A program made the translations under genes and the position numbers. The notes beneath the pieces were generated by a model, which did no database searches, was not told the DNA's origin, and saw only the letters and a list, made by a program, of their open reading frames with translations. From Lachnospiraceae bacterium (GTDB lineage: Bacteria > Bacillota > Clostridia > Lachnospirales > Lachnospiraceae), in contig JAJPWX010000081.1 of NCBI GenBank assembly GCA_021205755.1, forward strand, positions 19,956-56,382: 36,427 nt of DNA, given 5' to 3'. Of the stretch, positions 14,203 to 32,327 are shown piece after piece; position 1 is the stretch's first letter; each line of letters opens with the position of its first letter.

Positions 14203-15048
14203 TTAATATACCATACTAACACTGATATTTCTTTGGTCTTCGCTCCACACATCCTCATCCAAATCTTCGTCATATAATGTTTCATGCCCAATCTCTACAA
14301 CGGCGTACTTAGTAGACGATTTCCACTTTTCTTCATAGTTTTTCGGATTATAAACGTACACTTCATAATAATTACCTTTTTTCTTAGAATCCTCATCATT
14401 TATATCAGTACAATATCCAGCTTTTCTTAATGAATTGCTGAGCGTTTTTGCTGTATCAAGGTTACTTATATTCTTATCGTATGAGCAAGACATTCCAGAA
14501 TCATCTGGACTGTAGCCGCCTTCCCAGAATTCTATTCCGTCCATTGACTTTAAAGCAGAATCTACCGCTTTAGCGCAATTATTCCAATTAAGAGTTTTTG
14601 CAGCTGTTGGCTGTTCGGCATCTGCGATATCTGTTGTTTTACTTACTTTTACAGAAGATTTTGTATAACCAATACCACGTTTTTGGGGAGCGGAACTGCT
14701 CTTTTTAGCTGCTTTCTGTGAAGCGGAATTGCCATTTTCGGATTCTTTTTGTGAAGCAGAACTGCCCTTTTCAGCTGCCTTCTGCTTAGCTGTAGATGTA
14801 TAACCAGACTGGGATGACCCTTGTCTGTTAGCTACTCCGCCTCCTTTTGTGCTTCCGCCTCGCTTCCCTTCCCTGCCTTTATGACCCCAGTTCCCACTTC
14901 CTGGCCCACCGTCCTCTGCTATTGCCCCCCCTGATGAGGCCGCAATTATTTGTGCGAGTCTCAGCTTTTCCTCTCGATCTTCAGTCTGAATGGCTCTAGC
15001 CGCCAATCTTTTCACCTTGTTCTTCCGATATTTTTCTGTTGCATCCAT
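14203..15048 (-). CDS. Tagged accessory protein, unknown C-terminal domain
   Basis: 281 residues. Residues 1-45 (MDATEKYRKNKVKRLAARA... then EEKLRLAQIIAAS) closely parallel the start of the ART at 16279-17538. The Gly-rich tag spans 46-66, followed by GGGVANRQ and SGYTS. Residues 90-125 are Ser/Lys-rich with repeated SASQK/SAPQK. The C-terminal 150 form an unrecognised domain (KTLNWNNCAKAVDSALK, FWEGGYSPDDSGMSC, YYEVYVYNPKNYEEKW). I see no R-STS-ExE triad, so it is not obviously an ART. The shared head and tag suggest it is delivered or assembled like the ART. It follows the hydrolase unit and its terminator. It could be an effector, a partner or an immunity protein. Confidence 0.75.
   Translation of the reverse strand: MDATEKYRKNKVKRLAARAIQTEDREEKLRLAQIIAASSGGAIAEDGGPGSGNWGHKGREGKRGGSTKGGGVANRQGSSQSGYTSTAKQKAAEKGSSASQKESENGNSASQKAAKKSSSAPQKRGIGYTKSSVKVSKTTDIADAEQPTAAKTLNWNNCAKAVDSALKSMDGIEFWEGGYSPDDSGMSCSYDKNISNLDTAKTLSNSLRKAGYCTDINDEDSKKKGNYYEVYVYNPKNYEEKWKSSTKYAVVEIGHETLYDEDLDEDVWSEDQRNISVSMVY
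14851..14913 (-). other. Gly-rich tag, copy 4
   Basis: Residues 46-66 of the 281-residue protein: DGGPGSGNWGHKG and GGS, followed by GGGVANRQ and SGYTS. See the other copies at 17332, 22569 and 23604. Conserved positions are GGPGSGN, GH, G and GGS. Confidence 0.85.
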
Positions 15049-15071
15049 AATTTACTCCTTCCTCTTCATGC

Positions 15072-15099
15072 AAAAAGCGGGTAGCACACGCTCCCGCTT
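15072..15099 (-). terminator. Intrinsic terminator after ADP-ribosylglycohydrolase
   Basis: Minus-strand stem AAGCGGG/CCCGCTT with an 11-nt loop and a five-T tail, located 27 bp after the hydrolase stop. With the promoter at 16234-16262 it defines a separate two-gene transcript. Confidence 0.75.
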
Positions 15100-15125
15100 C
15101 AAAAAATTCTATATTCAGTTACACT

Positions 15126-15941
15126 TCAATTGAACTTCATAGAGACCACATAGACTGCAAAGCAATCTAATATTTCTGACAGTCTATCATCCAGAAAGCT
15201 TCTCGCTTTCTCCTCTATCCACCCAGGCACTCCGTAATATGCGCCGGCAATAGATCCCGCTATTGCTGCCAGTGTGTCGCTGTCACCGCCGAGTGATATT
15301 GCCGTCCGGATTGTATCTTCAAAATCATCAGCTTCCTTGAAACATTCTATAGCCTGCGGCACTGTTTCCATGCAGGTTTCATTGAACCTGTAAGTTGGTC
15401 TAATCTCATCTATCGTGAAATCCAGGCTGTAGTATTCTTCGAGCTTCCGGATGATCTCTTTTTTATCGTAGCCGTTCATTGCCATCCATGCGCCGACCGC
15501 AGTTGCTTCCGCACCTTTAATGCCCTCTGGATGATTGTGGGTGACAGCAGTTACCTTTTCGGACAGTATCTTCACTTCTTCAAGGCTGTTTGCCACACTT
15601 GCTACAGCGCTTACGCGCATCGCAGCTCCGTTACCGAGGCTGTTGTAAGGTTTCGGATTATTACTGTACATCCATCCATAAAACCTACCACCATAACCGC
15701 ATTCGTGATATGGTCTGCCTACTTCCTGCATAGATGAAACTGCCAATTCTGAAAGGTTCTCATAATTTCCATCACTCAGGATCAACGCTTTTGCTATCGC
15801 AAGTGTCATGATGCTGTCATCTGTTGGGAAACATCCTTCAGAGAACAGTGGAAACTCCTTAGAGCGGTGATTGTCAAATTCATACACAGAACCGACAATG
15901 TCCCCTACAATGGCTCCGATCACATTGTTCACATTTTTCAT
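15126..15941 (-). CDS. ADP-ribosylglycohydrolase (ARH/DraG family)
   Basis: 271 residues. It carries the ARH family pattern: GAIVGDIVGSVYEF at the start, PTDDSIMTLA (residues 39-49, the Thr-Asp-Asp that binds metal), GNGAAMRV (103-110), THNHPEG (134-140) and GGDSDTLAAIAG (218-229, the second metal-binding Asp pair). These enzymes use two magnesium ions to remove ADP-ribose from Arg or other acceptors, or to cleave ADP-ribose conjugates. All key motifs are intact. It is located between two tagged genes, one an ART, and shares a promoter with the 74-residue gene upstream. It probably reverses modification made by the phage's own ARTs, or by a host ART-based defence. Confidence 0.92.
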   Translation of the reverse strand: MKNVNNVIGAIVGDIVGSVYEFDNHRSKEFPLFSEGCFPTDDSIMTLAIAKALILSDGNYENLSELAVSSMQEVGRPYHECGYGGRFYGWMYSNNPKPYNSLGNGAAMRVSAVASVANSLEEVKILSEKVTAVTHNHPEGIKGAEATAVGAWMAMNGYDKKEIIRKLEEYYSLDFTIDEIRPTYRFNETCMETVPQAIECFKEADDFEDTIRTAISLGGDSDTLAAIAGSIAGAYYGVPGWIEEKARSFLDDRLSEILDCFAVYVVSMKFN

Positions 15942-15968
15942 GCCATCACGCCCTTCCTCTTTTTTTGC

Positions 15969-16193
15969 TCAATCGTCATCCTTGTCATCAATATAGTACG
16001 GGCAATCATCATTCTGCCAAAGGATACCATGCGGCTTGATCTCGTATACTTCGCAAACGCTCAGTGTCGCTCCTTTTATCTTTCCATCCAGCCTATCTTT
16101 TGCCCGTAATAAGCAGTCTTTGCAGTTGATCTTATCAATATCAGGCTGTCTTAACGCCCCGATCGCCTCATCAGTGAATCTTGGGTTCTTCAT
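15969..16193 (-). CDS. Small Cys-containing protein, unknown
   Basis: 74 residues, MKNPRFTDEAIGALRQPDID, then NCKDCLLR and CEVYEIKPHGILWQNDDCPYY. The C..C and later Cys residues could hold a metal. It resembles short proteins of unknown role in Firmicutes phages. It is the first gene of the promoter-terminator unit that includes the hydrolase, 27 bp upstream of it. It could be a regulator or a hydrolase cofactor. No enzyme motif is seen. Confidence 0.65.
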   Translation of the reverse strand: MKNPRFTDEAIGALRQPDIDKINCKDCLLRAKDRLDGKIKGATLSVCEVYEIKPHGILWQNDDCPYYIDDKDDD

Positions 16194-16233
16194 AATACCA
16201 CCCCCTCATGTGATAACGTTACTCTTTGACTAT

Positions 16234-16262
16234 ATACTACCACATTTTTGCAAAATTGTCAA
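16234..16262 (-). promoter_or_regulatory. Promoter of the hydrolase unit
   Basis: Minus strand TTGACA (16257-16262), 17-nt spacer, TAGTAT (16234-16239). A second TTGACA lies 14 bp upstream. The site is in an AT-rich gap between the ART and the 74-residue gene, with TAACGTTA, an 8-bp palindrome, just downstream. It lets the hydrolase be made independently of late transcription. Confidence 0.75.
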
Positions 16263-16278
16263 ATTATTTGTCAAATCA

Positions 16279-17538
16279 TCACTTTTTCCTTGCTTTGTTG
16301 TAAGCGGTATTCTCATAATCCTGCCCGGTAACAAGGACCTTATATTCAAACTGCTTTGATGCAGAATTGTAACCTCCTGAAACCACACTAATACTCGTCC
16401 CTCTCTGCAATATAGTCTCATCTTCGTTTGAGAAATGGCTTTGAGACGATTTTCCATCCCTATTAACCAGAGAATCCCAATTGTACCCGGCTCCATCTCC
16501 GCAGGCCGAAAACGGTTCAGCGTATAATGCTTTAGTGCCTTTCGGAGCTAATATTTGCATTTTTACAACCCCGCCGTAATCGCCCTGTTGTGAGCTTGAG
16601 GTAGACATGAAAGCGTCATCTGTTCCGGACTTCCCCACAATACTGTCAGCCGTGCTCGATGTTAGTGTGCCTTTTTCCATTCTAAGTAGCTTCTCCATCG
16701 CCGACCTGGTGCATTCTCGGTATAGTACCGTATCTGATTGCAATTCACTCTGGTCGATTGCATCGGTAATACGGTCAATCTTGTCATTTATACTGTCAGA
16801 TCCTGTTTCACCAGCCCGCAGGTTTTGGTTTATTGATACATAGCCTGAATTCGTATATGAATTAAGCGCTTTCTTCGACTGGCTATCCAGGCTTGCATAA
16901 ATATCACCGCTCTGCTGCCGATATGCGTCATCAAATTCTTGTGGCGACCCTGCATTGAAGGAATTTGAAAGCTTTTCATCATAGCTTTTCGCGTCCATAG
17001 TCTTCGTTACACTGTAGTTCGGATTTGCAGCATCCGGAATGTAGATCTTTGCTTCATCGCCATAATCTTCGAACAATATTTCACAATCATATTCATCTGA
17101 AGTGTAATAGATTTCTCCGGTGTCAAAGCACAATAGGTAGTCTCCATATGAATCACTTGACTTGATGAATTTGCTGCCATTGCTGGTTTGCATGACGCTT
17201 CCTTTTGGTACAGATTGAAGCTCTTTCGAATCTGTCTTATGGCTCTTCGCAGCGGCTTTCTTTGTCTTTGAAAATGAAGTGTAACTCCCCGATTCAGTTG
17301 TCTGTCGGTTATGCACGCCTCCTCCGCTTTTGGAGCCACCAATCTCGCCCTTTCTTCCCTCATGTCCCCAGTTCCCAGATCCGGGGCCACCATCAGAATT
17401 ACGGTCAATATCGTTTTTAAAGTAATTTCCGTATATGATAACTGCGAGTCTCAATGCTTCTTTCGGAGATTCCGCATTCCGCATCCTTTCCGCAAGGCGG
17501 AGTTTCTTTCTGCGATTATATTCTTCTGCTGTATCCAT
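16279..17538 (-). CDS. ADP-ribosyltransferase with N-terminal tag
   Basis: 419 residues from MDTAEEYNRRKKLRLAERM, chosen because AAGGAGGA is directly upstream and the start aligns with the paralog at 14203-15048. A longer frame to 17676 lacks both. Residues 49-69 are the Gly-rich tag, followed by GGGVHNRQ. The C-terminal 200 hold an R-S-E class ART: VLYRECT (Arg274), FMSTSSS (STS at 312-314) and NEDETIL (ExE at 372-374), preceded by an INQNLRAG helix as in C3/VIP2-like toxins. The ExE motif predicts transfer to Arg. The substrate is unknown. With the MuF and portal neighbours and the shared tag it is probably virion-associated, like T4 Alt, but that is inference. Confidence 0.88.
   Translation of the reverse strand: MDTAEEYNRRKKLRLAERMRNAESPKEALRLAVIIYGNYFKNDIDRNSDGGPGSGNWGHEGRKGEIGGSKSGGGVHNRQTTESGSYTSFSKTKKAAAKSHKTDSKELQSVPKGSVMQTSNGSKFIKSSDSYGDYLLCFDTGEIYYTSDEYDCEILFEDYGDEAKIYIPDAANPNYSVTKTMDAKSYDEKLSNSFNAGSPQEFDDAYRQQSGDIYASLDSQSKKALNSYTNSGYVSINQNLRAGETGSDSINDKIDRITDAIDQSELQSDTVLYRECTRSAMEKLLRMEKGTLTSSTADSIVGKSGTDDAFMSTSSSQQGDYGGVVKMQILAPKGTKALYAEPFSACGDGAGYNWDSLVNRDGKSSQSHFSNEDETILQRGTSISVVSGGYNSASKQFEYKVLVTGQDYENTAYNKARKK
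17332..17394 (-). other. Gly-rich tag, copy 3
   Basis: Residues 49-69 of the stand-alone ART: DGGPGSGNWGHEG, then GGS, followed by GGGVHNRQ and SYTS. Its DNA differs from the other copies mainly at third positions, so the copies are old and conserved by selection. Confidence 0.85.
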
Positions 17539-17569
17539 GATAGTCCTCCTTGTGCCAGGTGTGCAATTT

Positions 17570-17755
17570 CTACTTCCTTTTGTTTTTCCCGTATCTGTCC
17601 TGCCTGAATGTTTCCTGCCAATCAAGAAATTTATCCCGCTCAACGATATCCGGAATGCAGTTCTTATTGCACCCACGCTTTGATCGCTTGCATATGCAGT
17701 AAGTCTTTCCGTTCCGGAAATCTATGAAAACTTTGATCCGTTCCTTATCTTTCAT
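17570..17755 (-). CDS. Small basic Cys-rich protein, unknown
   Basis: 61 residues, MKDKERIKVFIDFRNGKTYC, then ICKRSKRGCNKNC and WQETFRQDRYGKNKRK. Three closely spaced Cys with another nearby suggest metal binding, perhaps nucleic-acid binding given the charge. A GGAGGAGGAA lies about 14 nt upstream, farther than ideal. It fills the gap between the metallopeptidase and ART. No family recognised. Confidence 0.5.
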   Translation of the reverse strand: MKDKERIKVFIDFRNGKTYCICKRSKRGCNKNCIPDIVERDKFLDWQETFRQDRYGKNKRK

Positions 17756-17784
17756 GGCAAGCTTCTCTTCCTCCTCCGTCAGAA

Positions 17785-18171
17785 TTATACTATCCAGTCA
17801 ACGCCCCACTGGTTAATAACATCTTTGAAGTCTTCAATATCATGCGGAATAATCGAATACTTCAACGTTTCCGCTTCAAACCCCACATGCCGCAATTCAT
17901 GGTACATCAGTTTTTCTTTAGTCTCCTCGCTGAGATCCAGACTGTCTCCATAAAAGGTGATAATGAAGTCGTATGGCAAAAGGGCTTTCAGTTTGTCCTT
18001 AACCTTCTCGGTGTCAGCATATACAGTCTTTCCATTGTTGGTCTTTGACGTATCGCACTCCTGATAGGCAATTCTGCAGGAAGGATTTCTTAGATGAGCA
18101 AACACTTCTTTTTCCTCAATCAGTTTCGAACCGATTTTTGCAAGATCCTCGCTTTTCTTATAAACCGCCAT
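17785..18171 (-). CDS. Putative phage metallopeptidase
   Basis: 128 residues. YHELRHVGFE (HExxH) with a following SIIPHDIEDFKDVINQWG matches small phage metallopeptidase-domain proteins. An acid or His in the last 25 residues would be the third zinc ligand. The start overlaps the MuF stop (TAATG), so the two are coupled. Upstream family patterns FAHLRNPSCRIAYQ and YDFIITFYGDSLD fit. Role unknown: perhaps head protein maturation or degradation of a host target. Confidence 0.75.
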   Translation of the reverse strand: MAVYKKSEDLAKIGSKLIEEKEVFAHLRNPSCRIAYQECDTSKTNNGKTVYADTEKVKDKLKALLPYDFIITFYGDSLDLSEETKEKLMYHELRHVGFEAETLKYSIIPHDIEDFKDVINQWGVDWIV

Positions 18172-19091
18172 TACTTTCCCTCCTTAATTGGAACGTCAAC
18201 CGTATTAACGTCAAATATAGGAATTGCAACACATCTACACGCATAATCCTCGCCGGGATTGCAATGTCTCCCTGTATAAACCTTCCCCTTTTTCGTCATG
18301 TACCACATTTCCGGCGGATCATCCCAGCTGATGATCTTTCCGTGCAGTTCCCTATGGCAATCACGCACTCTGGAATCTTTTGAAGTGGACCATTTGTACT
18401 TTTTGACTCCAGCATCTGTTTGCTGCATTTTGGTAATGGATGCATTCAGTGTGGCAACCTGATCTCTCGCCAGAAGTTCAGCGTTCCGCTTGCTGATATT
18501 GTATTCATTCTGAATATCGCGCTGCATCTGGCGTAGTGAAGTGCCATTCTGGTATCCGTCTAGTATAATCTTTTCCAAACTTCCTAGTGTGTCCTGCGGA
18601 ATGGTCTTGATCTTCAGCACATTTTCGGATACCCACTGTTTCAGAGCCTGCTCATAGGCTTCGCCCTTGTAATAGTCTTCAAAGATATCCACTCCGAGCG
18701 TTTTCTTTACCGTCCGTTTCCACTCCCTTGTTGTCTGTTTGCTCATGAGTTTTGCAATCTTCTCAATATAATCGTCCAGGCCGAATTTCCCTACGGATTG
18801 CTCCAGTTCTTTAGCAATCTCTTCCATCTCCAGACGGAGTTTGCGTTCAAAACTGAGTCTGGAGTCATATCTGGAATCTGTCCGTTCATGTTTGACGGCA
18901 CTCATGATCGCCGGCAAGTGTTTCTTTAAGGAATCATTCAGAAGTTTCATGTATGAGCGGCTCACCCGTTCATACTCTCTTTCTGCTGATCCGGGGTAGC
19001 GTGGAACTACGGCAGAATCCTTGGTATCGGAGCTTCTGAATTTGTCTTTTACAGCCTCTTTTACCATTTCTTGGTGAATTGTGTTGTTCAC
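18171..19091 (-). CDS. Minor head protein (MuF/SPP1 gp7 family)
   Basis: 306 residues. GTG start with AGGAGTG upstream. The MuF domain is in the C-terminal half: AELLARDQVATLNASITK, KKYKWSTSKDSRVRDCH (the W-x-T-x-x-D-x-R-V-R core), GKIISWDDPPEM and GRHCNPGEDYACRCVAIP. MuF proteins sit at the portal inside the head and are needed for DNA ejection, and many are fused to toxin domains. This one is not fused. Instead, effector-like domains lie in the portal gene and in genes just downstream. Confidence 0.92.
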   Translation of the reverse strand: MNNTIHQEMVKEAVKDKFRSSDTKDSAVVPRYPGSAEREYERVSRSYMKLLNDSLKKHLPAIMSAVKHERTDSRYDSRLSFERKLRLEMEEIAKELEQSVGKFGLDDYIEKIAKLMSKQTTREWKRTVKKTLGVDIFEDYYKGEAYEQALKQWVSENVLKIKTIPQDTLGSLEKIILDGYQNGTSLRQMQRDIQNEYNISKRNAELLARDQVATLNASITKMQQTDAGVKKYKWSTSKDSRVRDCHRELHGKIISWDDPPEMWYMTKKGKVYTGRHCNPGEDYACRCVAIPIFDVNTVDVPIKEGK

Positions 19092-19132
19092 GCCTTATCA
19101 CTCCTATTTGGCCTTGTTATCGAATTTTAGAG

Positions 19133-19915
19133 CTATTCTGTAGCTTTTATCTTAGCTTCATGAACAGAGTCAAGAATGCAGTAAGCTTCCATGAATTTCA
19201 CATCGGCATTGATGTACCCATAGCCACTGTCTCCCCATTCTTTTCCCCAGCTGTTCAGAATGATCCAGTGCTTTTTACCATCAATCACTTTCCATCCTGT
19301 GATCAGAATTGCATGGCCTCCCTCTTCCTCTCCAGAGATGGTGATAATGCCATCCGATCCGGTTTTGTACCATCCGGTTGTTACCATATAGGCAGCAAGC
19401 ACAGATCCGGTCTGCATGATCGCCCGCATTACCTCTTTCTGTGTTTTCACAGCGTAGTATGAACTTACCCGGTACGGAAGGGCTTCCGCATCTGCCCTGG
19501 TCTTTGTGTTGTAATACATCTTCTTGCACCTTTGATAATCAGCAAATCCAGGGAGCGTGTCGTAAAAACAATCTCCCGCATGGACAAGCTGTTTCAGGGC
19601 ATCCTTAAGATACATTCCTTCGCCTTCATATATGCCATCTTCCACAACTGATTCCGCCCGATTGCCATATATATACATTGGTGACATCTGGCATTCATTC
19701 CCACTGTCAGTCAGCTCGTGAATATACCTGCTCATTGCAGTCGCGCAGGCACAGCACATAGATGTCTGTCCCTGGTCAAAGAACTCTACCTCGTACTCCG
19801 GTATGTATTCTTCCTGATACTCGGTCCGGTCTATCCCTGTGACCAAATCGGAAAACTGGTAATCTCTACTGTCATATGGGGATTTGAGGCATCCCATGCC
19901 TGGCCTTCTTTCCAT
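19133..19915 (-). CDS. Papain-like (C1 family) cysteine protease
   Basis: 260 residues. The C1 triad is visible: FDQGQTSMCCACATA (oxyanion Gln48, catalytic Cys54), EEGGHAILITGW (His201) and WIILNSWGKEWGDSGYGY (Asn221). There is no signal peptide and the propeptide is very short (about 40 residues), so it may act without zymogen activation. It lies between the toxin-antitoxin unit and MuF, with a GAAAGGATACGG ribosome binding site. Papain-like enzymes are rare in phage head operons. It could mature virion proteins, separate the portal polyprotein, or be carried in as an effector. Confidence 0.88.
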   Translation of the reverse strand: MERRPGMGCLKSPYDSRDYQFSDLVTGIDRTEYQEEYIPEYEVEFFDQGQTSMCCACATAMSRYIHELTDSGNECQMSPMYIYGNRAESVVEDGIYEGEGMYLKDALKQLVHAGDCFYDTLPGFADYQRCKKMYYNTKTRADAEALPYRVSSYYAVKTQKEVMRAIMQTGSVLAAYMVTTGWYKTGSDGIITISGEEEGGHAILITGWKVIDGKKHWIILNSWGKEWGDSGYGYINADVKFMEAYCILDSVHEAKIKATE

Positions 19916-19948
19916 TTCCGTATCCTTTCTGCCTGATTTTTTGGCACG

Positions 19949-19983
19949 AAAAAAGCAGGGCGCACATCAGCATCCTGCCTTTT
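19949..19983 (-). terminator. Intrinsic terminator after toxin-antitoxin unit
   Basis: Minus strand AAAAGGCAGG/CCTGCTTTTT, a 10-bp stem with one G-U pair, followed by further T. It lies 28 bp after the PIN toxin stop. Confidence 0.75.
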
Positions 19984-20010
19984 ACCATTTCTATATAAAC
20001 TTCAATGTCA

Positions 20011-20442
20011 TCAGCCTTTTGCTATGCTGTCCTGAATTATTTTCAGCATATCTTCCGGAGTTTTGACCTCCACTGGGCTGTAACTGGTTTCTGAAAAAAC
20101 CTTATCTCTGGTAACAATGTAATCCGCCCCCGCATTATAAGCGCTATAGGCAAGCACCGCGTCTTCAAAATCAGCCATCAGGGAAGTAAGGGCGTATCCA
20201 CAGATTTCTCCATTGATTTCTGCTACATCAAAAACATTTAAAATTTCCTGTATGGCCTGCCTTGCTTCTAAATCTCCCAAGCTTTTTCTTGAAATGTAAT
20301 AAATATCTGTAATGGTATTGGCTGTCACATATCCAGATATTTCTTCGTCGGCAACTGCATCAAAAAGTTCTCGAACCGATACATATCCAGATCGTTCCAA
20401 TATGGCATCCAGTAATATGTTGGTGTCAAACACAACTTTCAT
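20011..20442 (-). CDS. PIN-domain toxin (VapC-like)
   Basis: 143 residues. MKVVFDTNILLDAI holds the first catalytic Asp. ADFEDAVLAYSAYNAGADYI and VTRDKVF hold further acidic residues. PIN toxins are magnesium-dependent RNases that cleave tRNA, rRNA or mRNA. It starts inside the antitoxin stop (ATGA, 4-bp overlap). It has its own promoter upstream and a terminator downstream, so it is a self-contained cassette in the head operon, possibly for plasmid-like maintenance or to block other phages. Confidence 0.88.
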   Translation of the reverse strand: MKVVFDTNILLDAILERSGYVSVRELFDAVADEEISGYVTANTITDIYYISRKSLGDLEARQAIQEILNVFDVAEINGEICGYALTSLMADFEDAVLAYSAYNAGADYIVTRDKVFSETSYSPVEVKTPEDMLKIIQDSIAKG

Positions 20443-20657
20443 TTGAAACGTTCCTCCCGTTCTTTATCCAGATCTACATCCAACCCTTTAGGGTAAATGT
20501 TATACAGTCTCTCAAGAGCTGCTTTTTTGTCTGGTTTTGCAGAAACGAGTTTTGCAGCAACCTTCCCATTCTTTGTAATCAATACATCCTGCTCCTGTGC
20601 CATCATGACATATTTCCCAGGATTCGTTTTTAATTCAGATACAGAAATTTGCGTCAT
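20439..20657 (-). CDS. Antitoxin (Phd/YefM-like)
   Basis: 72 residues from MTQISVSELKTNPGKYV. The ATG at 20657 has AAAGGAG eight bases upstream, while an ATG two codons earlier is too close to the site. It has the Phd pattern: a DNA-binding N-terminus (ISVSELK), DVLITKNGKVAAKLV, then a toxin-binding helical tail (ALERLYNIYPKGLDVDL). It binds the PIN toxin and usually represses its own promoter. Confidence 0.85.
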   Translation of the reverse strand: MTQISVSELKTNPGKYVMMAQEQDVLITKNGKVAAKLVSAKPDKKAALERLYNIYPKGLDVDLDKEREERFK

Positions 20658-20698
20658 AACCATTTCTCCTTTCTTATGAGTAATTTGTTGCTATTCTT

Positions 20699-20727
20699 AT
20701 TCTAACATAAAAGACCTGTTTTTGCAA
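20699..20727 (-). promoter_or_regulatory. Promoter of the Phd/PIN unit
   Basis: Minus strand TTGCAA (20722-20727), 17-nt spacer and TAGAAT (20699-20704). It overlaps the inverted repeat at 20709-20743. Confidence 0.75.
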
Positions 20728-20743
20728 GAAAAGTAGGTCTTTT
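20709..20743. promoter_or_regulatory. Inverted repeat over -35 box, operator or terminator
   Basis: AAAAGACCT/AGGTCTTTT, 9-bp arms separated by 17 bp, spans the -35 box and spacer. It could be the autoregulatory operator of the antitoxin. On the minus strand it could also end transcription from the SHOCT gene, with its T-run following. Confidence 0.6.
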
Positions 20744-20796
20744 TTTAAGGAAAATATGGTCTTTTCCGAATTTTATACGGCTCAGTATTCCTACTG

Positions 20797-21450
20797 CTAC
20801 TTTTTAAGCAACTGCTTTTTCTTTTTCTCAAACTCTTTCTTTGTAATCACACCATCATCCAGCAGCTGCTTATACTTCAGTATCTCATCAGCAGCAGAAA
20901 GTGCTTGATTCTGCTGCGGTTGTGGCTGATACTGTGGCTGAGATTGACTCTGAGCCTGAAACTGTATCTGATCGTGATGTTGCTGCTCGTATAGTGATTC
21001 CGGTGCTTTTCCTGAATCCTCGTTCATCGAATCTACGACAGTTTTTGGCGTTGGTTGTTGCTCTCTGTATTTCAATAATGCAAGCTTTTCAACAATCGTG
21101 TTGTAGTAGAGATCGCCAACTTCCAGTAGAGACTGTTTTCCGTCCTTAAAGCTTATGATAAGATTATAAGTACCCTTTTGGCCTCCGGATGCTGCACCAG
21201 CAAGAAGCCCGACTGGCCCAAGGAAAAAGTTGCCAACCAACCCTTTCGCCACTCCACTTGCAGCACTTTTTTGATGGTCTTCCGTAATAACATCATACGT
21301 AGCAACTTCATCTGGTATCAAAAGAACATCTTTCTTAAATGCCCCAAGCTCTATTGATACACACTGGCTTTTTTCTTTTCCTTTCCCTATCGTTGCGAAC
21401 TTTAGGTTCTTCCCTTTGTAATCTCCGTCAATCACCATATTCCTTGCCAT
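20797..21450 (-). CDS. SHOCT-domain protein
   Basis: 217 residues. Residues 1-115 form a beta-rich domain (FKDVLLIPDEVATYDVITE, YNLIISFKDGKQSLLEV) with a Gly-rich hydrophobic hairpin GVAKGLVGNFFLGPVGLLAG that may touch membranes. Residues 150-180 are Gln/Pro-rich. The last 32 residues (AADEILKYKQLLDDGVITKK...) are a classic SHOCT motif. SHOCT proteins are widespread, and the domain probably mediates oligomerisation. ATG behind GGGAGGTAC. It sits between portal polyprotein and the toxin-antitoxin unit and may be accessory. Confidence 0.75.
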   Translation of the reverse strand: MARNMVIDGDYKGKNLKFATIGKGKEKSQCVSIELGAFKKDVLLIPDEVATYDVITEDHQKSAASGVAKGLVGNFFLGPVGLLAGAASGGQKGTYNLIISFKDGKQSLLEVGDLYYNTIVEKLALLKYREQQPTPKTVVDSMNEDSGKAPESLYEQQHHDQIQFQAQSQSQPQYQPQPQQNQALSAADEILKYKQLLDDGVITKKEFEKKKKQLLKK

Positions 21451-21524
21451 AACCGTACCTCCCGATATATTTCATCTTTAGAAGTTTCTATATATCAGGA
21501 TTATTCTACATTCTGGTGAAAAAG

Positions 21525-24500
21525 TCAATTCTTTTTGTACTTGCTTTCGCTACTATTTTTGCGATATTCCTTCTTTGGCGGATACGCCTTGAAGTCCCCA
21601 CTGCTTTCCACCCATCTGTCAAGCATAGGCTTTGGTTCCGGTTCTTCCTTGGTTTTCTTTTCTGTGCCATCATCATTATTCATAATTCCATCTCCTTTTG
21701 GCCCAGAGGCGTATTCTCCGCACTCAATTACGGTAATATCAGCGTTTTTACCACCGCCCCCTTTTTCTGTAACCTGCACATTGAGGACCGTCCACTGTGC
21801 TTTGCTGTGTGAGATAACCTCCTCCTCACCAACGCTGTTCAAATAAGCAATGGGTGAAGATGTGCGATTCTTCACGCATTTAATGACAACCGAATTTGCG
21901 TATTGATTCGATCTATGAGAAAAGTTCACGGCATCATCTTCTAATGATGACCAAGATGCATTCATCCCACTCTCATTTGCACTTATTGTGCTTCCTCTTT
22001 GAACATTCTCCATAAACTTTTCATAGTCTTCATCAGTGCCAAAATGTAGCCCCCTGTAAATCGTGCCATCGTAAGTGCTGTCATTTTCTATGAACTTATC
22101 TAGTTGTTCCGTTTTTGCTCCTGGATCATGTGAACTTGATGTCCACGCTCTCATAGCATTTCGGATTTCTAAACACTCATCTTCTGGCAGCCCAGTTGTT
22201 TCTTTGATATAGCCAATCCGCGCTTCTGAATAATCTTTGTATTTCCCACTTTGTATATCATTATGTGGTCCCATCGAATCATTTTCTTCCGTGGTAGGCT
22301 TTTCGCTGGTTGTATCTCCATTCTCTTCGAGGAGTGAATAATACTCCTCTATCTTTTCGGGCAGTGTTCCGTTGTCCATCGCGTCCACGGCTTCATCCTC
22401 AGTGAGATATCCACTATCCCAAAGGGTAGTTGCCTGTTCTTCTTCGTCCTGGCTCAGAAGTGATTCCTTCTCGCTTTTAAGTCTGGCCTTGTACTCAGCT
22501 TTCTTCGCAGACGATGTATAACCAGATTCAGAACTGCCCTGTCTGTTCTCAGATCCACCGCCCTTAGCAGACCCACCAAGTTCGCCAGGCCTTCCTTCGT
22601 GACCCCAATTACCAGAGCCCGGCCCACCATCTTGGTTCTCGCATTCCTCGCATATCAGCTCACAAAGCTCTCGAAGCGTATCATCTGGTGCTGAAAGGAT
22701 TGCATCTACCGTCACGCCAAACTCACTTGCCAGGAAGTCCAAATCCTCCGGGCCAAGCTCCTTGAACATTTCTCCGTAGGGTAAGGTTCCTTTCCCTTTT
22801 ATCATATCGCTTTTTGCATGATTTGCAAGGGTTTTGCCATTAGCAGGAGTGGTAATGGCAAAAGCTGCAGCAAGATCCTTTAGGGACATGATGCCGTCGG
22901 AACGGCTATCACTTTTTGTTCCATTCACGATAGAAGCAACGTTTGACAGGAATGTTAACCTCTGTGCGCTGCCTTCTCCATAGCACAACGCAGAGCCTAC
23001 TGCATCCGCAAACCTCTCAGCTTCTCTCTCAGACGAACTTGCTCCAAAGTACGCGCCCTGGCTATCAGAGAGCCCTGCGTCTTTATTGAGCTTCGCAGAC
23101 CATTCTACCACATCCATTCCTTCAGGCTTTGTAGAGTCTGCATAGGCGTGTGCGAACTCGTGCATTATCTGAAATCCGCTGGCCCTGTCGCTGATGTAGA
23201 GATGTCCTTCGTCCTCAACGTCGTCTTCTCCTGTAGCGCGATATGAATACTGCGCTTGCGCGTCAAGATCCGGATTGTAAACATGAACAGCCTTTAAGGC
23301 AGATAAGCCACCAAGCTCTTCATATTGCTCAATTGCGGCGACAATATAATCCGCTTGCTCTTTAACAGACGCAATTTCTCTGTCCATATGGTCCTGCAGC
23401 GGTTTATAATCTACGACCATCTCAACGCCCTTATCTTCAAGATAGGACTTTAGATCGCTTGCGGTATGGATTTTCTTTGTCGCGCTTTCCACTTTAGACT
23501 TTGCTGTTGACGTCAGGTGCATATCGGAAACGTCTCCAGTCACCTCGAAGTCTCCAGACCCACCTTTGAAATCAGATGCAGACGGCGTACTTCCTTTACC
23601 CGCACTGCCTCCTCTTTGGCCTGGAACTCCTTTGTGTCCATGATTACCGCTTCCAGGGCCACCGTCAAAATGATCATGACCGATTGTTCTCAACAACAGT
23701 TCTATAGCGTCTGCGAACGGCTGGAACAACGCCTTATCCATCTCCTGTAATTCTGCCAGGGAGCGGAACCTCAGATCGCCCATCTCTCCATCCGTATTCT
23801 TCAGATCACCCTCGTATTCAGTTGCCAGGAATACTGCCGGCTTTAACCCGGTATCCGGTTCCCATGGTCCGAAGCCAATCTGAATGATATCCTTCGGCGT
23901 AATGCCAAACTCTTCCTGTGTCTCTCGGATCGCAGCCTGCTCATGCGTTTCTCCGTCCTCAACATGACCGCCAGGACCGCAAACTAGGCCGGGGTTAAAT
24001 CCTGTCAGTCTTGTTCCGGATAAGATACAGCCGTCTTTAATCACGAGAACGCCTACAGAGCCGTGTTTTGGCCTGTTGGTGGATAAATTATTGTTTGCGC
24101 TTATTTCCTCTAATTCTGAGGCTTTTGGCGAATTTGGCGGCGTTTCCACACCTTTACTATGTTCTGTATTATTATACCCGTCATGATTTACAGTTCTTCC
24201 AACTTCTTGATATGTGATCGGAGTTCTGAATGATTTGCCATCCATTCGCCCTTCTTTCTTCTCGGCGGCTTTTTCCTTCTCTTCCTCGCTCATATCCTGT
24301 GGAAGCTTCGTTGCTGCAGGTGCTGCTGTCGGAGCACTGCCCTCTGTTCCGGGGTCGGTGTTGTGTTCTTCAATATCAACTCCTTCAGCATACTTGTCAA
24401 AGCTTCCTTCTTCTGGAATATTCCCCTTTGTCTCGACGACATTTTCCTCTGAAGGATTCTCCTGAGATTCTATGGTTTCCTGTTCCGGAACCATCCCTGG

Positions 24501-25967
24501 GATTTCACCGCCCATAGGCATTTGCTCTTCTTCATCCCCGCCCTGTGGCATGTTGGCAAAAAGTTCATCTTCGTCGTATTCATCAAGCATATTCTCGATG
24601 TCAAATTCATCGCTATCAGCCAGTTTCTTCCGTACCTCAGACGGGTCAATGACCTGTGCATCCATGTAAAGCTGCGCAGTCTGTGCTTTGATCTGTTGAG
24701 TCTGTGCTTTCTGCTGGTCAATGGCAGCCTGATCGCTGTCGCTCATATTCCAAAGAGGATTGAACTTGATATTCAGGTCGGGCACTTCATCCACTTCCCC
24801 ACAGGCAACGCCCGCTTGAAAAACAACACTCAGGAGATACCGCAGGTTCTTCTTTATCATCCTGCTCTGTATTCGTTCAAGGTAATTGTACCAGTTCTCT
24901 AGGTCTGCATCCCCTGTGCTGTTCATTCCCGCAGGGCTGCGTCCGAAAAGGATAGTCTGAGGAATACTGGTCAGTGCGGAAAGATAATTGCAGGCAGAAT
25001 CAATGACATCTGACACACCAGAGAACTGGAATGTCCGGAAATCATAATCCTCACCTTCGGCATCAATTGTAATGGAATTCAGCAGTCCACGAGCCATATC
25101 TATAGTCTGTAGCCTGCGTAGCACTCTTTCCTCGCCCTGCTCTGTGGCAAGTTCAGCAGAGAGGTCTTTCATCTTGTAAACAGCCTGCACGGACCGATCC
25201 AGTAATTTAGGTGCACTGCCATGAGCAATCTCAGCATCGCGAATAGCCTTATTGATCCGGATATACTCCGGAACTCCCCACAGTTGGTAAATGCTGTTGG
25301 TTGTATTCTCTGGCAAGATGCCGTTCTGAAACACAAGGCACCGGCTGTCATGGACACGGAAATTCCCATACTGGCTGTAAACATCGTAATATTCTGGCAT
25401 TCCCAGCCTGCTTGATCTCGTCCGGAATGGATCATCCGAACGATAATTGAACATGCTTGATGTATCCTCCTGGATTACAGAGCGGTCATACACTCGGAGA
25501 TCATCTATGGACTTAATATTTTTCCAGTCAACGGGTTCTTCCAGGCCACGCCCATCATTGATAAGCATGACGATAATGCTGCCGCCGAATAGTCTCGCCC
25601 ATTTAATCGCCGTCATAACCGTTTCTTCCCAATCCAGTTCATCAAGGGCGTTCGTGTAAAAATCTTCAATACTCTGATCTTTTACCTCCAGGGTAAATCC
25701 ATGCTTCACAGCTTCCTCAGCCGGGGTATCTATAATCTTTGCAAACAGGCCGTTGCCCTCATAATACATAGTCAGGTAATCATCCGGAACTGGCGGTTCT
25801 GGCCTGTAATGGTAATGCTCAGTCGTGTCCTTGTTTGTGGCATAGTTATTCAAGAGGTTCGTATAGCCGTCAGAACGGTATGGACGCACTGCTTTCCCAG
25901 TCTGTTTCTCCAGCAGACGTTCAAAATTTCTCAGCTGTTTAAGCTTGTCCTGCTTATTGTCACTCAT
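21525..25967 (-). CDS. Portal polyprotein: portal, Nudix, metallopeptidase, ART
   Basis: 1480 residues, about three times a usual portal. Residues 1-460 are a DUF1073-type portal (LFGRSPAGMNSTGDADLENWY near 340-360 is diagnostic). Residues 460-580 are an acidic linker. Residues 635-760 are a Nudix hydrolase with the full box GGHVEDGETHEQAAIRETQE + EFGI (666-689). Tag copies lie at 768-788 and 1113-1133. Between them is a metallopeptidase-like domain with IMHEFAHAYAD (HExxH 936-940) and SEREAERFADAV. After the second tag, residues 1240-1420 are ART-like: IYRGLHF (Arg1305), NASWSS (1336-1341), EEE (1381-1383). The frame is unbroken. Twelve copies of this chain per virion would be hard to fit uncut, so cleavage at tags is likely, but inferred. 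Confidence 0.9.
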   Translation of the reverse strand: MSDNKQDKLKQLRNFERLLEKQTGKAVRPYRSDGYTNLLNNYATNKDTTEHYHYRPEPPVPDDYLTMYYEGNGLFAKIIDTPAEEAVKHGFTLEVKDQSIEDFYTNALDELDWEETVMTAIKWARLFGGSIIVMLINDGRGLEEPVDWKNIKSIDDLRVYDRSVIQEDTSSMFNYRSDDPFRTRSSRLGMPEYYDVYSQYGNFRVHDSRCLVFQNGILPENTTNSIYQLWGVPEYIRINKAIRDAEIAHGSAPKLLDRSVQAVYKMKDLSAELATEQGEERVLRRLQTIDMARGLLNSITIDAEGEDYDFRTFQFSGVSDVIDSACNYLSALTSIPQTILFGRSPAGMNSTGDADLENWYNYLERIQSRMIKKNLRYLLSVVFQAGVACGEVDEVPDLNIKFNPLWNMSDSDQAAIDQQKAQTQQIKAQTAQLYMDAQVIDPSEVRKKLADSDEFDIENMLDEYDEDELFANMPQGGDEEEQMPMGGEIPGMVPEQETIESQENPSEENVVETKGNIPEEGSFDKYAEGVDIEEHNTDPGTEGSAPTAAPAATKLPQDMSEEEKEKAAEKKEGRMDGKSFRTPITYQEVGRTVNHDGYNNTEHSKGVETPPNSPKASELEEISANNNLSTNRPKHGSVGVLVIKDGCILSGTRLTGFNPGLVCGPGGHVEDGETHEQAAIRETQEEFGITPKDIIQIGFGPWEPDTGLKPAVFLATEYEGDLKNTDGEMGDLRFRSLAELQEMDKALFQPFADAIELLLRTIGHDHFDGGPGSGNHGHKGVPGQRGGSAGKGSTPSASDFKGGSGDFEVTGDVSDMHLTSTAKSKVESATKKIHTASDLKSYLEDKGVEMVVDYKPLQDHMDREIASVKEQADYIVAAIEQYEELGGLSALKAVHVYNPDLDAQAQYSYRATGEDDVEDEGHLYISDRASGFQIMHEFAHAYADSTKPEGMDVVEWSAKLNKDAGLSDSQGAYFGASSSEREAERFADAVGSALCYGEGSAQRLTFLSNVASIVNGTKSDSRSDGIMSLKDLAAAFAITTPANGKTLANHAKSDMIKGKGTLPYGEMFKELGPEDLDFLASEFGVTVDAILSAPDDTLRELCELICEECENQDGGPGSGNWGHEGRPGELGGSAKGGGSENRQGSSESGYTSSAKKAEYKARLKSEKESLLSQDEEEQATTLWDSGYLTEDEAVDAMDNGTLPEKIEEYYSLLEENGDTTSEKPTTEENDSMGPHNDIQSGKYKDYSEARIGYIKETTGLPEDECLEIRNAMRAWTSSSHDPGAKTEQLDKFIENDSTYDGTIYRGLHFGTDEDYEKFMENVQRGSTISANESGMNASWSSLEDDAVNFSHRSNQYANSVVIKCVKNRTSSPIAYLNSVGEEEVISHSKAQWTVLNVQVTEKGGGGKNADITVIECGEYASGPKGDGIMNNDDGTEKKTKEEPEPKPMLDRWVESSGDFKAYPPKKEYRKNSSESKYKKN
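22569..22631 (-). other. Gly-rich tag, copy 2 (portal polyprotein)
   Basis: Residues 1113-1133: DGGPGSGNWGHEG, then GGS, followed by GGGSENRQ and SGYTS. It precedes the ART-like domain of the portal polyprotein. The extended tail after GGS is shared with copies 3 and 4 but not copy 1. Confidence 0.85.
23604..23666 (-). other. Gly-rich tag, copy 1 (portal polyprotein)
   Basis: Residues 768-788: DGGPGSGNHGHKG, then GGSAGKGS. It separates the Nudix domain from the metallopeptidase-like domain. It is the most divergent copy and lacks the NRQ...SGYTS extension. Confidence 0.85.
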
Positions 25968-30252: not shown

Positions 30253-30963
30253 TTACCTTTGAACTTTAATTGCCGGCTTGTTGTTTTTAAAGTTATAATC
30301 GAAATATTTTCCCCATCGCCGTTTCATCTCATAGTAGCAATCCTTCTGCTCCTGCCGTGTCTTGCTGGAATTCCCTCCTGAGTTGGTGTCTGTCCCTGCC
30401 TTGACCAGCAGATACTTTGGTTTCAGGCAGATCCGGTTTACCAGTAGCTCGTGAAGCATTACATCTAAGTCGCAGTTATGATAAACTTCTTCCCGGAACC
30501 GTGATGCATATTTTGCCTTGTTGAACCACCTCATTGCTCCAGTGGTTCCTTTAAACTCAAATTCAGAACAATAGTTCCAAGGGGCAATCGAAGCATCCTC
30601 TGCTGCAAATCCAATATCCAGATCAACCATGAGTTGCGCAATTCTTTCTATTTCACTAGTGATAATCTCAGGGTCAAGAAGTTTTACGTTCTTATCCAGC
30701 CTGTATATGAAATAGTCTACGTCATCATCTATCATAAAAATGACCTGTTCGGGTGCATTATCAACGATGTAGTTGACAACCTTGCAAATATTGTCAATCT
30801 CATTATCGTTCACAGCCCATATGTTTTCGATTCCTCTTGCCCTGTATTCATCCTCCTGTGACTTTCTAACCACATAGGTGCAGTACTCCAGTAGTTTGAA
30901 TGTGCTTGTGGTCTCTGCCCTGCCATAGCTCGGAACATATATGTTAAACATTGGATTATTCAT
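30253..30963 (-). CDS. Glycosyltransferase (TET-associated, TAGT-like)
   Basis: 236 residues. NIYVPSYGRAETTSTFKLLE at the start, YVVRKSQEDEYRARG, and VIFMIDDDVDYF (DDD, the metal/nucleotide-sugar site) match GT-A enzymes of the TET-associated glycosyltransferase group known from phages, which add sugars to hydroxymethylated bases. EEVYHNCDLDVMLHEL near the C-terminus is also typical. No TET/JBP dioxygenase is seen in the window. It overlaps the WbqC-like gene by 8 bp. Alternative: a surface-glycan transferase. Confidence 0.75.
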   Translation of the reverse strand: MNNPMFNIYVPSYGRAETTSTFKLLEYCTYVVRKSQEDEYRARGIENIWAVNDNEIDNICKVVNYIVDNAPEQVIFMIDDDVDYFIYRLDKNVKLLDPEIITSEIERIAQLMVDLDIGFAAEDASIAPWNYCSEFEFKGTTGAMRWFNKAKYASRFREEVYHNCDLDVMLHELLVNRICLKPKYLLVKAGTDTNSGGNSSKTRQEQKDCYYEMKRRWGKYFDYNFKNNKPAIKVQR

Positions 30964-31660
30964 ATCTCTGTTTCACCCACTCTTCCGGAAGATTGAATCC
31001 CTGATTGAAAATGTAGTCCAACACGGATAGATCTTCGATGAATCCCTCTCTCTTGCATTGCCTGTATTGCACGGGCTTGTAATCGCTGTACATTACCTTT
31101 ATGCCGTTCCCTTCGTACATCTCCTCATCATTGTATTCTTTCCCGCCTGTCCCGGAGTAATATACCGTTCCTCCGAGCTGCTCACATTGATAAACGTTTC
31201 TCTCATTCTTTTTCAACTGAGTCGGAACATCCCTGCTTGCGATCACTATTCTGCATGAAAGCCCAAACCTGCGGGATATCTCCATGAGCAGTGACAGGTT
31301 CAAATTTGCCAGAAATCTATGCTTTACAATAAGGTTTCTTTCCAACATTTCAAAGGTTTCTTCAAAATACCGTGCATTTTTATAATTCATCCACACCGTT
31401 TTCAAAAGCTTGTCCATCCATGGCTTCTCATAATTGATCTCAACCTGGTTGATCAACGCTCCGTGTGGATAGCTGCATGGAATGATAATCCGAAACTTCT
31501 GGTCTCCAACCCTAATGTAATTCGAGTTGTGCAATCCGGTTCTGGAATACTGTACATCATCGTCAAATACAAATATATCTGACTGAAACATTTTATAAAA
31601 GACTCCCATGTACGGAAGGAAGTTTGGCTGGTGTCCGGAGAATACGAATTCACTCTTCAT
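30956..31660 (-). CDS. WbqC-like family protein
   Basis: 234 residues. FSGHQPNFLPYMGVFYKMFQ at the start and FVFDDDVQYSRTGLHNSNYI are the family signature, then FRIIIPCSYPHGALINQVEI. Members occur in O-antigen and other glycan clusters and are thought to help build amino-sugar groups; the reaction is unproven. ATG behind GGAGGAGG, overlapping the ParB-like gene by 11 bp. Together with PIG-L and NeuD-like neighbours it points to modified-sugar synthesis. Confidence 0.85.
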   Translation of the reverse strand: MKSEFVFSGHQPNFLPYMGVFYKMFQSDIFVFDDDVQYSRTGLHNSNYIRVGDQKFRIIIPCSYPHGALINQVEINYEKPWMDKLLKTVWMNYKNARYFEETFEMLERNLIVKHRFLANLNLSLLMEISRRFGLSCRIVIASRDVPTQLKKNERNVYQCEQLGGTVYYSGTGGKEYNDEEMYEGNGIKVMYSDYKPVQYRQCKREGFIEDLSVLDYIFNQGFNLPEEWVKQRYE

Positions 31661-32303
31661 CTTCGGTTTCCTCCTCCGGAGTGTCGTTTCCCTGATATGC
31701 TTTTCTTAGTTTATCTATCTCATCTTTTGGAACGATCTCCGCTTCCATTTTGTCATACCAAATAGCCCTGGCATTGATCTTCCGTTTTGAAATGCTTACT
31801 TTTTTCCCTTCAATCCCCAGCTTCCGGACAAGATCATTGTAATCCAGCTCGCTCCTGCAAACCAGCATCACATAATCATATTTCTCGTAATGAATAAGTT
31901 CCATTTCTGGGATCTCTCGCTCATCTGGCGGCTCTTTTTCTTCTTTTATATCGAAATTGACATTCAAGTCTGCTGTCCAGTCTGAAAGCATATCTAAATC
32001 CCACTCACCGCTGTGAGTATTATCTTTTATATTGATTGCTCTCAGTTCTGCCCTTGTATAGCCGATCAGCCTTTTACAGTCCAATTCCTGTTCTGGTCCG
32101 AAGTGGTCAAGCACAACTTTTAGTCTTTGATTGCCACCAATAATGTTGTTATGTTCGTCTATGAGATAAATACCAAAATCGCCAAATTCGATGATGCTGG
32201 TTTTCAGTTCATCCAGTTTCTTCTGGGATATCTTCCTGGGGTTTCCGAACCCTGTCTTGATGTCCCCTGCTTTCATGGTACATCTCTCTATTCTTTTTTC
32301 CAT
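31650..32303 (-). CDS. ParB-like nuclease-domain protein
   Basis: 217 residues from MEKRIERCTMKAGDIKTG, chosen because GGAGG is six bases upstream. The ParB N-terminal fold is recognised by GNPRKISQKKLDELKTSI, IGGNQRLKVVLDH and TRAELRAINIKDNTHSG. NTHSGEWDLDMLSDW is common in phage ParB-like proteins linked to DNA methylases. No HTH or partition-like C-terminus is seen; the C-terminus is acidic (TPEEETEDEE). It may be a nuclease, CTPase or DNA-modification factor. Location in the sugar cassette hints at DNA modification. Confidence 0.8.
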   Translation of the reverse strand: MEKRIERCTMKAGDIKTGFGNPRKISQKKLDELKTSIIEFGDFGIYLIDEHNNIIGGNQRLKVVLDHFGPEQELDCKRLIGYTRAELRAINIKDNTHSGEWDLDMLSDWTADLNVNFDIKEEKEPPDEREIPEMELIHYEKYDYVMLVCRSELDYNDLVRKLGIEGKKVSISKRKINARAIWYDKMEAEIVPKDEIDKLRKAYQGNDTPEEETEDEE

Positions 32304-32327
32304 TCTGTACCTCCGCATTTGATAATC

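Follow-up and report, generated by a model that had tools for sequence, protein, structure and literature searches.

Amid the head genes of a prophage carried by a Lachnospiraceae bacterium (assembly GCA_021205755.1, genome 4.02 Mb; contig JAJPWX010000081.1, positions 19,956-56,382, a stretch of 36,427 nt called the window below and numbered from its first letter) lies what is probably a toxin-immunity module of the phage, integrated into its head operon. It consists of three neighboring minus-strand genes. An ADP-ribosyltransferase (ART) effector of 419 aa (16279-17538) would be packaged and injected, and behind it a 74-aa protein with four invariant cysteines, here 4C (15972-16193), and an ADP-ribosylglycohydrolase of the ARH1/DraG superfamily, here ARG (15126-15941), are candidate non-enzymatic and enzymatic immunity proteins that would protect the producer. 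The sequences show homology, the coupling of the three genes in other genomes, recurrent promoter-like sequences and the distribution of a peptide tag; packaging, injection, toxicity and immunity are inferred. An original prediction, made from the letters of this DNA, had proposed a virion-linked ADP-ribosylation cassette in which a ‘writer’ and an ‘eraser’ form a pair.

The reading frame of the ART is open to 17676 and translation probably starts at its M47 (17538), which gives the 419 residues: a leader of two helices (1-48), the tag (49-69), a middle domain and the ART domain (185-415, encoded by 16294-16986). The match to PF03496, the C3/VIP2-like R-S-E type, is at E 4.9e-23 (81.9 bits against a curated cut-off of 23.4), and R274, S312, E372 and E374, encoded between 16417 and 16719, are invariant in 10 aligned sequences, bearing out the predicted ART with its R274, STS and ExE. 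In an AlphaFold2 (AF2) model built from the 10-sequence alignment the ART domain has pLDDT blocks mostly of 83-94, weak at 341-370, and residues 40-90, tag included, fall below 50. Foldseek places 8za7_B at the top (E 4e-12, TM 0.85 by target), and the ART fold that had been anticipated for residues 230-419 is recovered; the sequence, searched with phmmer, also has 8za7_B as its top match (E 5e-9). Among PHROG families it matches 16625, ‘Bxa ADP-ribosyl transferase’, at E 1.2e-13; Bxa and its partners BAH and Bsi are taken up at the end. There is no fusion of this toxin to MuF, which has its own gene at 18171-19091; among the loci collected elsewhere, fusion to MuF or head-morphogenesis domains is seen in L183, L226 and L231. 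When viral contigs were scanned with the single ART sequence, five stretches came up, none of them confirmed; the ten-sequence alignment succeeded. Multiplicity is also seen: one phage (L051/L149) has four tandem tagged ARTs and one 4C match, without ARG, in a 100 kb record, and L162 has three ARTs plus two 4C.

The hydrolase, predicted to be intact, proves so by its match to PF03747 (1.6e-36; 126.9 bits, cut-off 26.2) and by having the expected active-site residues. All 5 aligned sequences, the window's among them, share E21, T40-D41-D42 and D220-S-D222, which we take to be the catalytic and metal positions. It is a relative of Tri1 and not Tri1 itself, scoring 56.9 bits against the equivalog NF041672 with its cut-off of 490.

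In the window ART and ARG are 337 bp apart. To see such neighborhoods elsewhere, loci were gathered with the ten-sequence ART alignment (A3), 74 of them viral and 13 from bacterial genomes, and were grouped at 90% ART-domain identity into 66 clusters, the window excluded; 64 could be judged, having at least 700 bp downstream of the ART or a companion found, and two were too short. ARG is within 1.5 kb of the ART in 30/64. On the base of 61 clusters that either extend 1.5 kb or more downstream or contain an ARG, the 30 comprise 17 convergent, 12 same-strand downstream and 1 upstream, so that ARG is downstream of the ART in 29 of 30. Clusters with a bacterial-genome member have ARG near the ART in 8 of 13 cases. 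Close to the ART, ARG is some 19 times denser (30 clusters in 343 kb) than in the rest of the same loci (3 matches in 667 kb). Does ARG simply belong to phage heads? As an ART-less control served the loci found by a DNA pattern for the tag, together with L147 and L148; 46 of these show a relative of TerL, portal, MuF or DUF2213, and 36 of the 46 are without an ART. None of the 36 (31 without near-copies) has ARG, 4C or the Bsi-type gene introduced below, and for ARG the comparison of 0/36 (0/31) with 30/64 gives a Fisher p of 6e-7, the two sets having been gathered differently. The 10 control head loci with an ART, several of them incomplete, have ARG in 3 and 4C in 7. ARG is absent from 16 whole records (6 with an ART, 10 without), and fragments prove little in this respect.

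Over 25 pairs, six with weak ARG matches having been excluded, ART and ARG distances also correlate (Mantel r 0.58, 0/5000 permutations), and they do so within the same-strand (7 pairs, r 0.77, 99/5000) and the convergent orientation (17 pairs, r 0.46, 0/5000). This correlation and the 30/64 clusters uphold the pairing of writer and eraser. In the ARG tree the window ARG joins four ARGs that accompany head ARTs (SH-aLRT 94, not starred), and the adjacent clade consists mostly of host ARGs. Recent capture of ARG from a host was considered and set aside: the nearest host-type ARGs (L124, L127, L128, L129, L134 and the viral L240) form the neighboring clade, outside that of the head ARGs, the two having SH-aLRT values of 90 and 94, neither starred. 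Also set aside was ARG as a marker of temperate phages, an integrase or recombinase over cut-off being found in 5/17 contigs with ARG versus 7/12 without (p 0.15). Five ARG loci (L249-L253) at first seemed to be ART-less. In L249 a divergent ART-like open reading frame (ORF) is convergent to ARG (PF03496 at 1e-4, just below cut-off; an S seems to stand at its R position), a Bsi-type match lies between the two, and L250-L253 likewise carry Bsi-type matches.

Within the 337 bp gap, and absent from the original prediction, is 4C. A ribosome-binding-like GAGGGGG precedes it, its stop codon is at 15969-15971, and ARG lies about 30 bp 3' of it. Its family numbers 39 distinct short members overall; in an alignment of 25 (A9) the residues of the signature C24-x2-C27, C47, K53-P54 and C64 are invariant. 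Among these 25 there is no Pfam match and one weak PHROG match, and against PDB nothing came below E 0.4. Companions of the ART in the 64 clusters are 4C only in 25, ARG and 4C in 11, a Bsi-type gene only in 5, ARG and a Bsi-type gene in 17, ARG only in 2 and none in 4. The Bsi-type family (A6) is defined by its position beside the ART, as Bsi is beside Bxa, and not by the sequence of Bsi; its profile matches none of the window ORFs, where 4C stands instead. Thus 4C is next to the ART in 36 clusters, the Bsi-type family in 22, exactly one small companion in 58, and both together in none. All 36 copies of 4C share the strand of the ART, many of them within 30 bp of it, and 4C occurs in 0 of the 105 ART-less loci among 120 listed tag-pattern loci (867 kb; 0/104 at a whole-sequence threshold). 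In one locus (L172:10721-11863) a single ORF behind an ART has 4C fused ahead of an ARG-like domain (E 2e-9). From its position, its coupling and the analogy with Bsi, 4C may belong to a new immunity family whose proteins would block the ART.

A search with A9 that was not preselected for ARTs covered 392, 391 and 398 genomes (of the order, class and phylum; the sets overlap) and matched 9 genomes besides the window's own: four with an ART within 2 kb, four without, and one fragment that was not refound. By eye, the surroundings of the ART-less copies were recombinases in one, an integrase in one, several copies of a small gene unrelated to 4C in one and something else in the other. Such orphans weaken a claim of strict ART coupling, though orphans are to be expected of immunity genes. 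L262 combines 4C and an ART protein with a DUF4157-like gene and another large ORF; by eye this is an extracellular contractile injection system (eCIS) whose ART has the same companion, the DUF4157-like motif being one that we take to be eCIS-type. In L271 the neighbors of 4C are several genes of about 150 aa with EETIRRFL-like strings at their ends, which by eye resemble a polyimmunity array, and in L041 (679-2589) a four-Cys-like stretch (E 2e-9) is the leader of a tagged 637-aa protein beside an ART.

Directly 3' of the ART stop on the minus strand is a promoter-like TTGACA-17-TAGTAT with TG before the -10 (16234-16262). Across loci, sigma-70-like sites with at least 9/12 matches were sought from the ART stop to the 4C start plus 60 bases of the ART. 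Where the gap measures 50 bp or more, 13 of the 15 loci have one, with about 2.6 expected from mononucleotide shuffles: 7/7 of those with ARG (the window included) and 6/8 of those without, that of L212 being a perfect 12/12. In L207, where the gap is short, the promoter-like site instead separates 4C from ARG. Such matches are at chance level when 8 kb of the window are counted (17 versus 16.2 expected), and the argument rests on position and recurrence, not on any single site. In Bacteroidota-type loci the small gene and ARG are oriented against the ART. In L226, where the ART protein matches head-morphogenesis families, the set is placed between portal and capsid genes, and in the isolated Bacteroides phage Versailles a long series of small genes opposing the ART has ARG and the next small gene as its last members. 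A separate transcript for the eraser, as the original prediction had it, is therefore supported by the promoter-like sequence ahead of 4C and ARG or, in 17 of the 30 clusters with ARG, by the opposite strand.

What may tie the ART to the virion is, in part, the tag. The pattern DGGPGSGN...GGS occurs four times in three window ORFs, in keeping with the predicted shared tags: in an ORF of 281 aa (DGGPGSGNWGHKGREGKRGGS, 14851-14913), in the ART (DGGPGSGNWGHEGRKGEIGGS, 17332-17394, the low-confidence stretch of the model) and twice in the portal polyprotein (DGGPGSGNHGHKGVPGQRGGS, 23604-23666, and DGGPGSGNWGHEGRPGELGGS, 22569-22631), all on the minus strand. A degenerate DNA pattern for the first half of the tag found at least 120 viral stretches, and the tag counts are from the 120 listed. 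There, 153 ORFs have the first half and 144 (in 111/120 loci) continue into the second, G..GG[SA], which the pattern did not demand; removal of near-copies leaves 122 tagged ORFs with 1 to 5 copies each. The free positions are narrow, with R/I/V at 12 (83% R), P at 13 (93%) and F/W/H at 7. By Pfam, with family counts that overlap within proteins, the 122 include ARTs (PF03496 14, ART-PolyVal 3, DRAT 3, PARP 1), portals (PF06381 14, PF04860 6, Portal_Mu 1, P23-45 1), NUDIX 10, MuF 8, DUF2213 4 and GNAT 3, as well as, among the matches listed, Zeta toxin 2, topoisomerase IB 2, Ntox50 2, PF13563 2 and others. In searches that started from the window proteins the tag was in 13/34 portal, 2/23 DUF2213 and 12/76 ART ORFs, and in 0/26 TerL, 0/17 capsid, 0/5 sheath-like, 0/72 ARG and 0/32 MuF ORFs; this MuF search missed the 8 tagged MuF proteins that Pfam recognizes. 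Of the 94 ORFs whose end is complete, 92 continue for 40 residues or more beyond the last tag.

A DNA-level element such as a recombination site was rejected for the tag: synonymous codons vary freely, tag pairs in one protein sharing 43% of codons at like residues, and selection therefore acts on the tag peptide. The leaders that precede it were compared in 24 phages with at least two leader-tag ORFs (57 ORFs). They are more alike within phages (0.283, 43 pairs) than between them (0.140, 1553 pairs; 0/2000 permutations), also for the 35 within-phage pairs with unlike cargo (0.243, rank test p 1.4e-4, the pairs not being independent), and many within-phage pairs are nonetheless unlike. A tblastn search of named phages with the tag gave no match, a result made uninformative by the low-complexity filter and the short query, and six tag strings were found nowhere in the literature text searched, weak evidence where sequences are seldom printed. 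The tag may be a loading signal, a cleavage site or a plain linker.

Also tagged is the portal polyprotein of 1480 aa (21525-25967, minus strand), in which portal (24693-25769) and Nudix (23739-24068) domains recognized by Pfam are followed by a tag, a segment with an HEFAH motif, a second tag and an ART-like C-terminus (21693-22250); a portal thus fused to several effector-like domains qualifies as a polyvalent virion protein. The predicted full Nudix box is there (GHVEDGETHEQAAIRETQEEFGI, 23901-23969; PF00293 at 1.4e-14). Its assignment to an ADP-ribose cassette is another matter: the domain is also present in portal cassettes without ART or ARG, and its best solved-structure and NCBIfam matches are MTH1/MutT, with NAD(H) pyrophosphatase and one ADP-ribose pyrophosphatase weaker, and membership in the cassette is thus not supported. 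Nor could the second ART that had been seen in the C-terminus (residues 1240-1420) be substantiated. An R / SWSS / EEE motif is kept with small changes in two relatives (three sequences in all) and PHROG 16619, ‘minor head protein’, is matched at 1.2e-11, but the AF2 model is poor (pLDDT 52) and does not confirm the fold, profile comparison with the window ART yields nothing (hhalign probability 1), and Pfam finds no match in the window sequence and, in one of the two relatives, PF01129 at E 0.041. The tag-flanked HEFAH (23148-23162, residue 936) might mark a metallopeptidase cargo (weak PF06114, E 0.086).

How might such a module operate? The ART would be produced late, alongside the head proteins, and would enter the capsid by means of its leader and tag, packaging being suggested by fusion, tag and context. 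It would enter the next cell with the DNA and ADP-ribosylate bacterial proteins there, most likely on arginine to judge from the ExE motif and from Bxa. The two-gene mini-operon behind it would protect the cell making or carrying the phage, ARG presumably by removing ADP-ribose, as its residues and the example of BAH suggest, and 4C perhaps by holding the ART itself in check. If the promoter-like sequence is used, the mini-operon would have its own promoter and protection would be possible outside the late burst. Of the roles that the original prediction had offered for the eraser, protection of the producing cell is the one favored by comparative genomics and by the tested Bxa/BAH/Bsi system as described in PMC11699363.

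Several observations sit uneasily with a toxin-immunity module. No ARG is nearby in 34 of the 64 ART clusters, and for six phages whose ART locus is without ARG the record as a whole has none either. Six clusters lack either small companion. Four genomes have 4C and no ART in the 7.6-10.2 kb inspected, and in four loci with ARG the ART-4C gap is short and lacks a promoter-like site. Lysogeny genes are not tracked by ARG, in contigs that may be fragments, and the clusters are not phylogenetically independent. Might ART and ARG then both serve the infecting phage, the injected ART reprogramming the host early and ARG later erasing the marks? Their recurrent pairing would suit such a temporal switch, as would the T4 ARTs, which are known virion proteins (PMC5512222, PMC9503650). 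It is nevertheless unlikely: about half of the ARTs are without ARG, yet 58/64 have a small companion of no recognized enzyme family, for which reason inhibition fits better than timed removal, and Bxa, the relative that has been tested, is lethal to bacteria and requires immunity. Very unlikely is a counter-defense, an alternative raised in the original prediction, in which ARG and Nudix clear ADP-ribose marks or nucleotides of host NAD-based defenses, with the ART a separate matter. In its favor, ARG-family members are present in 47/250 host-family genomes at E 1e-20 (own genome included), and host ARG systems have been proposed to act against phage ARTs (PMC9503650). However, the want of ARG in the 36 ART-less head loci, which by itself makes counter-defense by ARG alone unlikely, extends to the 10 ART-less whole records; the window ARG groups with the head-ART ARGs, on the unstarred branch mentioned above, and the Nudix is nearest to MTH1/MutT.

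Equally little credence is due to an animal target, with the ART as a fitness factor modifying epithelial proteins and ARG and 4C merely protecting the producing bacterium. Bxa is reported to modify non-muscle myosin II in the B. stercoris setting (as told in PMC11699363) and several of the ART relatives are from Bacteroides and Prevotella; against this, the window ART shares its tag with a portal protein, and Bxa itself modifies many bacterial proteins. That 4C is an ordinary head or regulatory gene that happens to occupy the position behind the ART is rather unlikely. Its strict co-orientation and closeness to the ART (36/36 on one strand) are what such a gene would show, but it is missing from both the 36 ART-less head loci and the 105 ART-less tag-pattern loci, and beyond these there is an ART nearby in 4/9 genomes, one with a DUF4157-like gene, and another copy in an array that by eye resembles polyimmunity.

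The toxin-immunity reading can be widened to a modular cargo code that spans portal families, in which a phage-typical N-terminal leader and the nearly constant tag of 20 residues, GGPGSGN-x-GH-x-G-[RVI]-x-G-xx-GGS, would precede each effector and load it into the virion or release it there, mini-operons of the present kind would police such ARTs, and 4C would be a new class of ART inhibitor found also outside phage heads. This we offer tentatively, and would sooner wager against it than for it. Were these proposals correct, injected phage ARTs would generally be made together with an antidote, the four-cysteine inhibitor family (without Pfam and nearly without PHROG match) would be directly testable, the tag would identify virion cargo from sequence alone across phages with different portal families, and the ‘eraser’ among head genes would be explained as immunity and not as part of a host-signaling loop.

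The setting is that of a prophage, TerL, major capsid and tape measure being recognized by Pfam, and a DUF3383 protein encoded at 7155-8279 is one that we take to be sheath-like. On the minus strand the head order is TerS (by position, without a Pfam match), TerL, portal polyprotein, SHOCT protein, PIN, papain-like peptidase, MuF, small metallopeptidase, ART, 4C, ARG, the 281-aa tagged ORF, a small ORF, DUF2213 prohead protease and capsid, and the Pfam matches of portal, MuF, DUF2213, TerL and major capsid agree with the predicted nearness of the cassette to head genes. MuF, a minor head protein (PF04233, E 8.6e-23), is without a toxin fusion and without the tag. The 281-aa ORF (14203-15048, minus strand) has a leader that resembles that of the ART and a C-terminal domain without a Pfam match. 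The papain-like C1 peptidase (19133-19915; PF00112, E 3e-16) could process cargo or be cargo. Genes 5' of TerS (30253-33628) encode a TET-associated glycosyltransferase-like protein (PF20691, E 3.7e-7), WbqC (PF08889, 2e-53), a PIG-L deacetylase (PF02585, 2.5e-27), a PglD/NeuD-type acyltransferase (PF17836, 1.6e-13) and, by eye and without a Pfam match, a ParB-like protein; they are perhaps a DNA hypermodification or glycan set. ARAGORN reports a tRNA-Thr at 35837-35910, close to the window end, and a tRNA-Trp at 4076-4164 that, being within the tape-measure ORF, is probably false.

Parts of this have been met before in other company. ART, Nudix and peptidase domains fused to portal or MuF proteins are described and their injection is predicted, 14% of 191 MuF toxins being putative ARTs (PMC5512222, PMC9503650, PMC5576092). 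Packaging of ARTs has been argued, with one viral ART-ARG pair named, the DraT-DraG-like one of certain Aeromonas phages (PMC9503650); the passages of this literature on packaged ARTs make no mention of the tag or of a four-Cys protein. T4 Alt is a packaged and injected ART (PMC5512222), which the window ART would resemble in its proposed packaging; descriptions of Alt, as far as they go, include no paired ARG or small companion. Imm-ARG was proposed for polymorphic toxins of the Tox-ART-RSE type and predicted to undo the modification (PMC3482391). Like it, the window ARG is tied to, and encoded beside, an R-S-E ART; unlike the window ART, that ART clade is listed with delivery by type II, VI or VII secretion systems (T2SS, T6SS or T7SS), and its other companion, Imm41 (alpha+beta; SF, W), seems from its description in the same source unlike the four-Cys protein. 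In the structure 8za7, ‘ART-ARH type toxin effector-immunity protein pair’, Lmo0066 and Lmo0067 furnish chains that match both window proteins, the ART best by structure and by sequence; ARG is matched by 8za7_A (Lmo0067) over residues 7-246 at E 5e-12, listed twelfth, behind ARH3 chains that score higher over a short stretch. Judged by title, no literature on this pair was found.

The closest precedent is experimental. The MuF-ART Bxa, encoded in a prophage of B. stercoris, attacks arginine, acts on many bacterial proteins and kills E. coli; the neighboring hydrolase BAH, with catalytic E15, removes the modification and restores growth, and a small protein, Bsi, binds to Bxa and confers moderate protection (PMC11699363). 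With this precedent the toxin-immunity principle is already known. By counting, E21 of the window ARG, in its GAIVGDIVGSxxE stretch, would be the counterpart of E15 in BAH. Common to the two, as far as that source describes its system, are an R-S-E-type ART in the head region, an adjacent ARH1-type hydrolase and a second, small gene for non-enzymatic immunity, in the window a candidate one. They differ in that Bxa is the C-terminus of a MuF protein and the window ART a separate protein with leader and tag, and in that ARG and 4C are on the strand of the ART behind a promoter-like sequence, whereas in Bacteroidota-type loci both oppose it. We regard the window as a Bxa-like variant that differs in its delivery architecture and in its small companion; new here are the breadth of the tag, together with leaders that are alike within a phage, a version of the ART that has the tag and is not part of a MuF protein, and the family of four-cysteine candidate immunity proteins.

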